Under the pieces are notes generated by a model, which had not been told where the DNA came from, made no database searches, and worked only from the letters and a program-made list of their open reading frames with translations. From Priestia megaterium NBRC 15308 = ATCC 14581 (lineage in GTDB: Bacteria > Bacillota > Bacilli > Bacillales > Bacillaceae_H): DNA of 64,000 nt. The translations under genes were made by a program, and so were the position numbers. Location of the stretch: assembly GCF_000832985.1 (NCBI RefSeq), contig NZ_CP009920.1, forward strand, positions 4,148,501 to 4,212,500, written 5' to 3'. Below, piece by piece: positions 34,533-46,270 of this stretch (the first letter of the stretch is position 1; every line of letters begins with the position of its first letter).

Positions 34533-34557
34533 AAATTCGTGGGGAGGTATGTATTTG

Positions 34558-36051
34558 ATGCAAAATCTTGGAGCGAAAAAAGTTGAAATGAGTCCGAAAG
34601 TAGTGGAGTTTTTAAAAGGAGTTAAACAGCTATACATTAACGGCGAATGGGTAGACTCTGTTTCAGGAAAAACGTTTGAAACAGTAAATCCAGCAACGGG
34701 TGAAAAGTTGGCAGATGTAGCTGAAGCAAATCCAGAGGATATTGATCGTGCCGTCAGAGCGGCTAGAGAAGCCTTTGATCATGGACCTTGGACAAAGATG
34801 TCAGCAGCTGAAAGAAGTCGACTTATTTATAAATTAGCTGATTTAATGGAAACACATCAATTGGAACTTGCGCAGCTTGAAACGCTTGATAACGGAAAAC
34901 CAATTCGTGAAACATCAAATGCAGACATTCCATTAGCAATTGAACATTTCCGCTACTTTGCTGGGTGGTCAACTAAAATGGTTGGACAAACTATTCCTGT
35001 GCAAGGAGCGTATTTTAACTATACAAGATATGAACCAGTAGGAGTTGTTGGCCAAATTATTCCGTGGAACTTCCCGCTTTTAATGGCCGCTTGGAAGCTC
35101 GGAGCTGCTTTGGCAACTGGATGTACAATTGTGCTTAAACCAGCAGAGCAAACGCCGCTTTCTGCACTTTACTTGGCTCGACTAGCCGATGAAGCAGGGT
35201 TCCCAAAAGGCGTGCTAAACATTGTGCCAGGCTACGGGAAAACAGCAGGTGAACCGCTCGTTCATCATGATCTTGTCGATAAAATTGCTTTTACAGGGTC
35301 TACTGCTGTCGGAAAAGCAATTATGAAGCAAGCTAGCGACTCCTTAAAACGTGTGACGTTAGAGCTTGGAGGTAAATCACCAAACATTATCCTCCCGGAT
35401 GCAGACTTAACAAAAGCAGTTCCTGGTGCGCTTTCAGGTATTATGTTTAATCAAGGACAAGTATGTTGTGCTGGGAGTCGTCTGTATGTCCAAAAAAGCT
35501 TATATGATAATGTCGTAGCTGATTTAGTTTCTCAAACGAAATCTATTAAACAAGGAAATGGATTAGCAGATGAGACGACAATGGGTCCGCTTGTATCTGC
35601 GCAGCAGCAAAAACGAGTGAAAACCTATATTGATAAAGGAATTGAAGAAGGAGCGGAAGTACTCGCAGGAGGAAACATTCCATTTGATCAAGGCTATTTC
35701 GTAGAACCGACTATCTTTGCAGATGTCGATCATTCAATGACGATTGCTCGTGAAGAAATCTTCGGTCCGGTTGTAGCTGCTATGCCGTTTGACGATCTCG
35801 ATGATTTAATTGCCAAAGCAAATGATACAGCATATGGTCTAGCAGCGGGCGTCTGGACACAGGATTTAAAGAAAGCACACTATATTGCTCATGGTATTAA
35901 AGCAGGTACAGTTTGGGTGAACTGCTACAACGTATTTGATGCAGCAAGCCCGTTTGGAGGCTATAAACAGTCGGGAATTGGTCGTGAAATGGGAAGTTAT
36001 GCGCTTGATAACTACACTGAAGTGAAAAGCGTATGGATTAATATGGAATAA
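34558..36051 (+). CDS. NAD-dependent aldehyde dehydrogenase (DhaS-like)
   Basis: 497 aa. I take the ATG at 34558, 10 nt after GGGGAGG; the ATG at 34549 abuts the ribosome site. ALDH superfamily marks: [13 protein letters not shown] (about 163-175), FTGSTAVGK cofactor loop, general-base Glu in [10 protein letters not shown], and catalytic Cys303 in [12 protein letters not shown]. It oxidises aldehydes to acids; the closest B. subtilis relative by overall sequence is DhaS, with the physiological substrate undefined. Catabolite control by the upstream cre is likely. Single gene. Confidence 0.9.
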
Positions 36052-36095: not shown

Positions 36096-36128
36096 AAAAG
36101 AGTAGTCTTTAGTGGACTACTCTTTTAT
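36096..36128 (+). terminator. Terminator of the aldehyde dehydrogenase gene
   Basis: AAAAGAGTAGTC/GACTACTCTTTT with a 7-nt loop and trailing T-rich sequence. Confidence 0.82.
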
Positions 36129-36167: not shown

Positions 36168-37445
36168 TTGCCGGTTATACAGGGCCCCTCGTCGTATAAG
36201 CTTACCGGTCACCTGCAAAAGTTTAGAGAGAACCCCCTGGGTTTTTTGGAAAACTTGACTCAGTATGGAGAAATTGCAACATTTAGAGTTGCGCACAAAC
36301 GCTTTTATGTAACGAGAGACCCTCAACTTATTAAAGATGTAGTCATTACAAACAGCAAGGCGTTTCAAAAAATTAAACTAACGCATATGTTTAAAACGCT
36401 GCTAGGCGAAGAAATGTTATGGACAGATGAAGCATTATATATGAGCCCCATTCAACCCTCACAACTAAAACAACATCTAACTTTTAATAAGGAAGCAATC
36501 GCAAAAATAATTGAAAAGCATACGGAAACGTGGGAAGAAGGGCAGCTTCGAACAATAGTAAAAGACATAAGACAGATAGTCATAGCTGTACTCCTTCAAC
36601 TTGTATTTGGCATTTCGATTGAGGAGAAAGATAAAATTCACTATGTTCAAGCGCTTATGAGAAAAAAAGAAAAGTTAGGCAAAATTTATATTCGTCTACC
36701 TTTGCACCAGCCTGACTCAGATGAGCAGCTAGAACAACTCCTTTTTGAACGCGTTCAAATGCGTGTTCAAAACAAAACCGCAGGAAATGATTTACTGCAG
36801 TATATATTGAATTCTTACGGAGAAGACAGCGATGAAAGAGAAATATACGAACAGCTAAATTCTATATTCCTTTCGATGTATGAAATGATTACGCACGTAT
36901 GCAGCTGGTCTATTCATTTACTATCTCAAAATACTAGGGAGCACCTTCAGCTGCATAAAGAAATTCAAGCCTATGCTAGCGGCGAATCACTTTCAACCAA
37001 AAATCTAACCTATATGCGCAAAATAATTGCTGAAAGCATGAGGTTGTATCCGCCTCTTTGGCTATTTGGGCGTCAAGCACGTGAAGATATACAAATAGAT
37101 GGCTACAGTATTAAAAAAGGGGAGATTATGTTAATTAGCCCTTATATGATGCATCGCCATGAAGATTATTTTTTAGAGCCAAGTGAATTTTTACCTGACC
37201 GTTTTGAAAAAGGAGGGTCCATTGATGTCCCAAGCTATATGTATATGCCACTTGGGATTGAGCATCAAGCGGAAAGGGGCATGGACTATATCACTGAAAT
37301 AGTCACCATTTTTCTGTCAGAAATGACAAAGCGCTTTTTATTTCAGCTGACTAAGCCCGAATCTATTGCTCCGATGGCGGGCGTAATGCTGAATATGAAA
37401 GAAGAACTGAAGGTGAATGTTCACAAAGTTCACGCGCAGTCTTGA
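36168..37445 (+). CDS. Cytochrome P450-fold protein lacking the heme-ligand cysteine
   Basis: 425 aa; TTG start, with AAAAGGAGTGAT upstream. The frame is intact over the usual P450 length. The N-terminal GPSSYKLTGHLQKFRENPLG, the K-helix ExxR (Glu289-Arg292 in AESMRLYPP) and the meander EFLPDRFE are all clear. The Cys loop, normally FxxGxRxCxG, reads MPLGIEHQAERG, placing Glu369 where the thiolate cysteine belongs. The I-helix reads MYEMITHVCSW instead of the usual oxygen-activating AGxET(T). Such a protein should not be a normal monooxygenase. A binding or scaffold role, or a non-heme activity, is conceivable. No redox-partner gene is adjacent. Confidence 0.85.
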   Translation: MPVIQGPSSYKLTGHLQKFRENPLGFLENLTQYGEIATFRVAHKRFYVTRDPQLIKDVVITNSKAFQKIKLTHMFKTLLGEEMLWTDEALYMSPIQPSQLKQHLTFNKEAIAKIIEKHTETWEEGQLRTIVKDIRQIVIAVLLQLVFGISIEEKDKIHYVQALMRKKEKLGKIYIRLPLHQPDSDEQLEQLLFERVQMRVQNKTAGNDLLQYILNSYGEDSDEREIYEQLNSIFLSMYEMITHVCSWSIHLLSQNTREHLQLHKEIQAYASGESLSTKNLTYMRKIIAESMRLYPPLWLFGRQAREDIQIDGYSIKKGEIMLISPYMMHRHEDYFLEPSEFLPDRFEKGGSIDVPSYMYMPLGIEHQAERGMDYITEIVTIFLSEMTKRFLFQLTKPESIAPMAGVMLNMKEELKVNVHKVHAQS

Positions 37446-37489: not shown

Positions 37490-37518
37490 TTGACACATCC
37501 TGCATTGAGATTTATCAT
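37490..37518 (+). promoter_or_regulatory. Sigma-A promoter of the kinase-like gene
   Basis: TTGACA at 37490-37495, 17-bp spacer, TATCAT at 37513-37518. Confidence 0.7.
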
Positions 37519-37564: not shown

Positions 37565-38224
37565 ATGGATAAAACAATTAAACAGTTGGTGTCGCTAGTT
37601 GAAACATCATTACTAACGCAAGTTACGATTCAAAGTGAAAGTGACTATGATCCAGTTGAAGTTACGAACAAAACAAAAGAGTGGGTACTTATTGGTAAAG
37701 GAAACTATGCCGGTGTGTTTATGCACGAAAATTATCCTGAATTTGTCGTGAAAGTATACGGAAGAGAAATTTATGGTGTAAAGAAAGAAGCGCAAGTGTA
37801 TAGAAAGCTGGGCGTTCACCCAGCTTATTCTCAACTTTTTCATGAGGGAAAGACGTACTTGATTTTAAAAAGACTTACAGGCGTTACCTTGTATGATGCC
37901 GTCCAGCGGGGAATAAAGATTCCAGAACAAGTCATAAAAGATGTGAACGCAGCTTTGGACTATGCAACAAGCCAGGGTTTAAACCCGTATGATGTGCATG
38001 GTAAAAATGTCATGATGAAAGACGGAAGAGGGTATGTGGTGGATATCTCTGACTTTTATAAAGAAGGTTTTGATAAAAAATGGACAGACCTTGTAAAAGC
38101 TTATTACACCTTTTATCCGTTTATTGATAAGTACCATATCCGCTTGCCGTACCCGCTGTTAAACGTTATTAGAAAAGCATATCGTCTATATCGTAGAATC
38201 AAATCAAAAAGGAGTTTCCGCTAA
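37565..38224 (+). CDS. Protein-kinase-like protein (YrzF/YbdM type)
   Basis: 219 aa; ATG at 37565 after AGAGGGGAC. A small kinase fold: glycine loop GKGNYAGVF (about 49-57), ATP lysine in FVVKVYG, an alpha-C-like KKEAQVYRKL, and a catalytic-loop equivalent YDVHGKNVMM in which Asp and Asn fit a HxDxxxxN-type pattern but the usual His-Arg-Asp order is altered. VVDISDF stands where DFG is expected. The basic C-terminus (YRLYRRIKSKRSFR) may contact membrane or nucleic acid. Bacillus has similar short Ser/Thr kinase-like proteins (YbdM, YrzF). Activity is uncertain. Confidence 0.75.
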   Translation: MDKTIKQLVSLVETSLLTQVTIQSESDYDPVEVTNKTKEWVLIGKGNYAGVFMHENYPEFVVKVYGREIYGVKKEAQVYRKLGVHPAYSQLFHEGKTYLILKRLTGVTLYDAVQRGIKIPEQVIKDVNAALDYATSQGLNPYDVHGKNVMMKDGRGYVVDISDFYKEGFDKKWTDLVKAYYTFYPFIDKYHIRLPYPLLNVIRKAYRLYRRIKSKRSFR

Positions 38225-45616: not shown

Positions 45617-46270
45617 TCAAATCATTTCTGGATATTCGATGTTCCAGTGGACATTTTGAAGGTAAAGCTGAACATCCGCCTTTTTTTTCTGCTTCAGAAG
45701 TTTCAGAATATGGCGGTGATGTTCATTCATCACATGTAAAATGGCGTATAGCTCTTTATTGTCATTGCTAAAGTACGTTTGTCTGATGAATCCGTCTTGT
45801 AAAGATATAAGCTGTTTTTTTAAGGTCACATTACCGCATCGGTTCAAATAGACTCGATGAAAATACGTTTGATATTTTTGATAATCCTGATAATTTTCTA
45901 ATTCAATCGAAACATCGATTTTTTTAATAAGCTCATCCATCTTCGTAAAATCTTCTTCCGTTAAGTGATCAATCGACAGCGCAGCTGCAAGACCATCTAA
46001 AGCACCGACGATTTCAAATACTTCTAGTTTTTTTGGTGTGTCAATTTCCTTTACAGTAAACCCTCTGCGCGGTCTGTATTCTAATAGATTGTCTGAAGCC
46101 AGTTTAATAAGCGCTTCTCTCACAGGCGTTCGGCTGACATTCAGCTGAGAACAAATACTGGCTTCATTTATTTTGTCGTTAGGCAGCAGTGTACCGTCTT
46201 GAATTTGACTTGCTATGTAGTTATATACATGATCTTTTAATGAATGATAAATCATAGGCCCCTTGTTCAT
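45617..46270 (-). CDS. GntR-family regulator (FadR/FCD subfamily)
   Basis: 217 aa; ATG after TAGGGGGGAAACA. N-terminal winged helix (about 8-75: PNDKINEASICSQLNVSRTP, then VREALIKLASDNLLE) and C-terminal FCD ligand-binding domain (about 80-210) with metal-type His/Asp positions (FHRVYL, MNEHHRHIL). FCD regulators usually respond to organic acids or amino-acid catabolites. It is divergent from an arginine-type permease whose promoter region holds a 22-bp perfect palindrome, the probable operator. Confidence 0.88.
   Translation of the reverse strand: MNKGPMIYHSLKDHVYNYIASQIQDGTLLPNDKINEASICSQLNVSRTPVREALIKLASDNLLEYRPRRGFTVKEIDTPKKLEVFEIVGALDGLAAALSIDHLTEEDFTKMDELIKKIDVSIELENYQDYQKYQTYFHRVYLNRCGNVTLKKQLISLQDGFIRQTYFSNDNKELYAILHVMNEHHRHILKLLKQKKKADVQLYLQNVHWNIEYPEMI

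Follow-up and report, generated by a model that had tools for sequence, protein, structure and literature searches.

The window, by which we mean the whole 64,000-nucleotide stretch of Priestia megaterium DNA that was analysed, encodes a P450-fold protein in which a glutamate, Glu369, stands on the column of the heme-thiolate cysteine. The best reading of this gene is a non-monooxygenase use of the P450 fold, as far as comparative sequence analysis can tell, and we put at roughly 60% the probability that its product would be a conserved heme-free pseudoenzyme, kept on after the loss of heme as a scaffold to which a partner protein or a ligand binds. Selection for a use other than monooxygenation, as opposed to a dying gene, had been proposed beforehand in a sequence-only reading of the window, and the fixation of the glutamate together with the dN/dS values given below supports that proposal, at the level of sequence.

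Priestia is a genus known for model P450s and, to our knowledge, heme-less P450 folds that are kept as working proteins are known mainly from antibiotic clusters, where they serve as glycosyltransferase activators. The Priestia protein is encoded between genes of ordinary kinds in a bacterium that is common in soil and serves as a laboratory host, and it is conserved, with the same odd residue throughout, across lineages whose identity has fallen to a third. This suggests that a fold in wide use for oxidation can lose its cofactor yet persist outside the antibiotic-cluster setting. No report of the protein was found in our literature search, whose scope lay mostly outside subscription journals. 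The accessible part of a description of P. megaterium P450s covers seven of them, none of which could be matched by name to the window locus (PMC8390425).

Table 1. Coordinates of the features discussed, in window positions
Feature	Position	Strand	Details
Aldehyde dehydrogenase (ALDH), upstream neighbour	34549..36051	+	Pfam Aldedh, E 3.8e-193
Terminator-like hairpin between ALDH and P450-like gene	36096..36126	+	AAAAGAGTAGTC-TTTAGTG-GACTACTCTTTT
P450-fold protein without heme-thiolate Cys	36168..37445	+	425 aa, TTG start
C-helix stretch, residues 91-94	36438..36449	+	Next to a deletion of 3 residues, among them the Arg on the BM3 H100 column
I-helix core, residues 236-247	36873..36908	+	SMYEMITHVCSW; canonical relatives mostly AGHETTANALSW
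ExxR motif E289-S-M-R292, retained	37032..37043	+	E289 and R292 invariant in the 8 orthologues
Former Cys-ligand loop PLGIEHQAERG, residues 361-371	37248..37280	+	Glu369 codon GAA at 37272-37274
Sigma-A-like promoter ahead of kinase-like gene	37490..37518	+	TTGACA-17-TATCAT, 11/12 matches
Small protein-kinase-like protein, downstream neighbour	37565..38224	+	Pkinase 17.4 bits, below cut-off 31.7

A P450 frame with glutamate on the ligand column

The frame is open throughout and an AGGAG-like site precedes its start codon. Its product belongs to the Pfam p450 family (PF00067, E 7.8e-33, 114.4 bits against a cut-off of 22.8), and E289 and R292 of the ExxR motif and the meander Arg, R345, are invariant in all eight orthologues described below, which bears out the earlier description of a full-length frame that keeps both ExxR and the meander. 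Structure prediction gave a mean pLDDT of 82.9 and a pTM of 0.87 from an alignment that included 26 canonical P450s, on which the model leaned; in this model the former ligand loop (residues 361-370) had a pLDDT of 61, and prediction from the eight orthologues alone reached 55.7. When the model was compared with the PDB using Foldseek, P450s accounted for 50 of the 50 matches listed; sequence comparison with the PDB likewise matched P450s. CYP102A1 (P450 BM3), which is also found in the same genome, shares the fold with a query TM-score of 0.76-0.81 among the chains listed but, unlike the window protein, has the motifs FGNGQRACIG and AGHETT and works as a heme-thiolate monooxygenase.

The loop PLGIEHQAERG aligns without gaps to PFGGGPRVCIG, and Glu369 falls on the Cys column, so the protein lacks the axial Cys of the FxxGxRxCxG motif that marks P450 enzymes. 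A protein search of ten genomes of the genus, its own included, recovered full-length orthologues in eight, among them Priestia aryabhattai B8W22; five are 96-100% identical to the window protein (itself counted), one is 47% identical and two about 33-35%. The replacement of Cys by Glu369 in a gap-free alignment, which had been claimed from the single sequence, was confirmed in these genomes: Glu occupies the column in every genus genome in which the gene was detected (8/8), and none of the eight orthologues carries Cys there. Seven of them use GAA and one GAG, and the loop around the invariant residue varies within the genus (PLGIEHQAERG, PFGINPRVEVG, PFGMIAETEAQ). Cys codons (TGT/TGC) and Glu codons (GAA/GAG) have no position in common, so the replacement took several changes, and a sequencing error is ruled out because eight assemblies agree on the same residue.

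Outside the genus, Cys occupies this column in 108 of the 109 relatives examined and Tyr in the remaining one, a contrast with the genus that chance does not explain. The order-level search (397 sampled genomes, E-value limit 1e-35) contributed 76 listed matches from outside the genus (L035, L041-L062 and L075-L127), 75 with Cys and one with Tyr, and in the class-level search (398 sampled genomes, limit 1e-60) all 33 matches listed outside the own genome have Cys. Within the searches made, the Priestia P450-like protein was found only in the genus Priestia; with these E-value limits, the sampling of genomes and the scoring of at most four candidates per genome, relatives that are rarer or have diverged further may have escaped detection.

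The own genome holds six Pfam p450 matches, with Glu on the column in the window protein and Cys in the other five (L001-L004, L006). One of the five, L006, is a shorter frame of 308 aa on a second contig (G000:C7:18580-21939) with the Cys loop PQGGGDYFMGHRCAG; the same loop occurs in 436-aa frames of two further Priestia genomes (L023 in G008 and L026 in G004), and we take it to be of the CYP152 peroxygenase type. A search of plasmids returned 388 records with distant P450s, every one below 60% identity.

The rest of the heme site and selection on the gene

We compared the rest of the heme site between the eight orthologues and 74 canonical relatives, numbering the columns by BM3. In P450s, an Arg of the C helix and an Arg of the Cys loop hold the heme propionates. 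The first of these, on the H100 column, is present in 99% of the canonical relatives and replaced by a gap in all eight orthologues; the second, on the R398 column, is lost in seven and kept in G006, whose loop is PFGINPRVEVG. On the A264 and G265 columns, which face the heme in P450s, the orthologues carry S, T or I and M or T, respectively, the T269 column is Ile in all of them, and the Phe of the F393 column is kept in three. The sequence-only reading had described the I helix as lacking the acid-alcohol pair of P450 enzymes, which holds for the alcohol but not for the acid: the window protein has Met240 on the T268 column, where Thr is kept in one orthologue only, that of G006, but retains Glu239 on the E267 column, where the acid is conserved throughout (Glu in six, Asp in two). 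Since G006 retains both the loop Arg and this Thr, the heme contacts have not all been lost in all lineages.

Y238, I241, C245 and W247 of the I helix are invariant in the eight orthologues. C245 is the single Cys of the window protein, in line with the earlier remark that the only other Cys near a core helix lies in the I helix (VCSW). It is unlikely to be a replacement ligand, as it is invariant but aligns with BM3 L273, a position that we take to lie well beyond the I-helix residue above the heme. In total, 19 positions are invariant in the orthologues yet rare (at most 10%) outside, including Y238, I241, C245, E369 and Y374, and the positions kept comprise E289, R292, R345, W247, P361, G363 and eight more. 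Such a pattern of losses and retentions is what one expects if the fold is retained and the cofactor is not.

The gene has evolved under constraint. NG86 dN/dS was 0.112-0.157 in the ten pairwise comparisons among the five close species and 0.158 between the diverged G002 and G004 (Fisher p 3.7e-33), and is therefore not relaxed to neutrality, a check that the earlier reading had named. Among the five close species 68 codons vary, 42 of them by synonymous changes only and 26 with a change of amino acid, and no amino-acid change falls in codons 351-380. The kinase-like neighbour has similar values (0.072-0.174); those of ALDH are 0-0.023, and four in-frame pairs of a CYP102 fragment from the same genomes gave 0.009-0.053, six out-of-frame pairs (606- against 609-base pieces, dN/dS above 1) being left out as artefacts. 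The P450-like gene is thus constrained, but less so than ALDH or the CYP102 fragment. Synonymous sites have reached or nearly reached saturation between the deep lineages and the frame is still intact, which makes a lack of function unlikely; a gene kept by selection despite the loss of heme and oxygen contacts probably serves a purpose other than P450 chemistry.

Origin of the protein and competing explanations

The eight Priestia orthologues form one branch (support 100/100) of a 92-protein tree, set among Cys-bearing P450s of the order, a placement by which the Priestia protein is a descendant of an ordinary Cys-bearing P450. Its exact sister is unsure because long inner branches (1.04-1.75) meet in the tree. 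The closest outside homologues among the matches listed are canonical P450s of the order (L041-L062, loop PFGGGPRVCIG), at 28-31% identity; they resemble the Priestia protein in length and core, and its branch nests among such proteins but, unlike it, they keep the Cys (22/22), the C-helix Arg and AGHETT.

The one relative with Tyr on the column, L107, is an intact P450-like frame from another genus of the order, known from a single genome (G087; G087:C13:13130-14650; L128:4233-5561). It groups in the tree with the Cys-bearing L101 of its own genus (L129:4407-5735) and, by eye, the same two genes follow both. L107 is like the Priestia proteins in its P450 fold, its retained ExxR and its loss of both the Cys and the I-helix acid-alcohol pair, and unlike them in its Tyr, its independent origin and its position as sister to L101. 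A single loss of Cys shared by L107 and the Priestia proteins was rejected when they were forced into one clade (AU p 0.0039), so that, under this model, Cys has been lost in an intact frame at least two times; within one P450 group, the loss is thus seen twice, independently.

The sequences show that this branch, nested among Cys-bearing P450s, has lost the Cys, the C-helix Arg, mostly also the loop Arg, and the small residues of the I helix above the heme, and that its structural core (ExxR, meander Arg, P361, G363) is retained under purifying selection. To account for these observations, we propose that the protein would no longer bind heme, that its old heme pocket could be filled or adapted, and that Glu369 may have a structural or recognition role in the rebuilt proximal loop. 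By analogy with EryCII and its glycosyltransferase, it might act as a non-redox scaffold for a partner protein or a ligand. We regard as tentative, and on balance doubtful, the more pointed proposal that a selected Glu has taken the place of the axial thiolate and has a specific role, either as a carboxylate ligand of heme or in a new active or recognition site within a heme-free pocket.

It is unlikely that heme is still bound, with the Glu369 carboxylate as axial ligand or with an open proximal side, in a peroxidase-like enzyme, a heme sensor or a heme store. The position of an invariant Glu exactly on the ligand column would fit such a protein, as would the retained ExxR, meander Arg and I-helix acid and the loop Arg of G006, but the C-helix Arg is deleted in every orthologue, the loop Arg is lost in seven and bulkier residues have replaced the small ones over the heme, which makes heme loss likelier than a Glu-ligated heme. 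We consider it highly improbable that the gene is silenced or slowly decaying and its Glu a neutral accident. Its absence from two of the ten genomes, the long inner branches and a dN/dS above those of the CYP102 fragment and ALDH would agree with decay, but the frame is open in all eight genomes despite the synonymous saturation between deep lineages, Glu is constant, dN/dS stays at 0.11-0.21 and codons 351-380 are unchanged in amino acid among the five species; a pseudogene was judged unlikely from the dN/dS values and the retained Glu. That a moonlighting site of the terpene-synthase type, like that of CYP170A1, now works without heme is scarcely conceivable: the top NCBIfam match is indeed an albaflavenone monooxygenase/terpene synthase model (NF051859) and the top PDB chain in phmmer is 3dbg, which we take to be CYP170A1, but the 115 bits scored lie far under the model cut-off of 700 and the Asp-rich DDxxD/E motif is present in none of the eight orthologues, so that a bifunctional enzyme of this type was rejected.

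Membership in the EryCII/DesVIII family of dedicated glycosyltransferase activators is very unlikely. The window protein shares with this family the absent heme-ligand Cys, and a glycosyltransferase-like gene, which we take from its sequence to be UgtP-like, lies near the locus in G006. The glycosyltransferase-like gene is, however, also found beside the locus in G005 and G008, both of which are without the P450-like gene, and in the window no glycosyltransferase family was detected in the 14 neighbours scanned (28 to 45.4 kb) out of the 15 listed for 28-46 kb, 45617-45940 being left out; these 14 look ordinary and no partner gene is evident among them. Moreover, the protein scores 21.3 bits against a cut-off of 343 for the activator profile (NCBIfam TIGR04515), by which membership was rejected, and it nests among Bacillales P450s. 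As described in the accessible part of the structural report, EryCII is a heme-less P450 homologue of known structure that is without the C helix and keeps helices I, J, K and L (PMC3391682). The same kind of loss is seen here, with a P450 fold without the heme-thiolate Cys, a reduced C helix, I, J, K and L kept, and functional retention, but the partner of EryCII is contacted by an added N-terminal helix (PMC3391682, same part), and the Priestia protein starts directly at the usual P450 N-terminus. Judged by profile score and tree position, the Priestia protein is analogous to these activators and not a member of their family.

The locus and its intergenic signals

In the eight genomes that carry it, the P450-like gene stands between the same two genes, and the order ALDH, P450-like gene, kinase-like gene is found also in the three diverged genomes G002, G004 and G006. 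The hairpin between ALDH and the P450-like gene was the one terminator-like site found, against an average of 1.3 in shuffles, and as this count is not above shuffles, the case for it rests on conservation. Its 23-base core (36100-36122) is exact and single-copy in all eight genomes with the P450-like gene and, allowing up to 2 mismatches, absent from both genus genomes without it. The intergenic alignment contains an invariant run of 29 bases. In 915 bases of ALDH, by comparison, no such run exceeds 14 bases, and roughly half of the third positions of ALDH are identical between deep lineages. The intergenic region folds modestly better than its shuffles (z -1.98, with 8 of 200 as good). No Rfam match at the gathering score was obtained in 34-40 kb, and inspection by eye of the upstream region for a sporulation-type promoter gave no pattern common to all lineages. 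The hairpin may simply end the ALDH transcript; the conservation of its sequence, loop included, seems to exceed what a terminator needs, and shared ancestry is a confounder of its association with the P450-like gene.

Promoter-like sites were no more frequent than in shuffles (5 found, 5.3 expected), and only the one ahead of the kinase-like gene reaches 11 of 12 matches. With this site, the kinase-like gene does not require a shared transcript with the P450-like gene, and the argument for an operon is weakened.

The kinase-like gene is present in all ten genomes of the genus, and the absence of the P450-like gene from two of them, G005 and G008, implies that it is dispensable in some lineages. 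No orthologue was found genome-wide in G008, where the kinase-like gene lies about 730 bases from the start of its contig and the frames listed in that interval include none of P450 type. In G005, about 480 bases and a small ORF separate ALDH from the kinase-like gene; this ORF, in the place of the P450-like gene (at about L071:1168-1359), encodes a membrane-type protein that we take to be DUF378-like.
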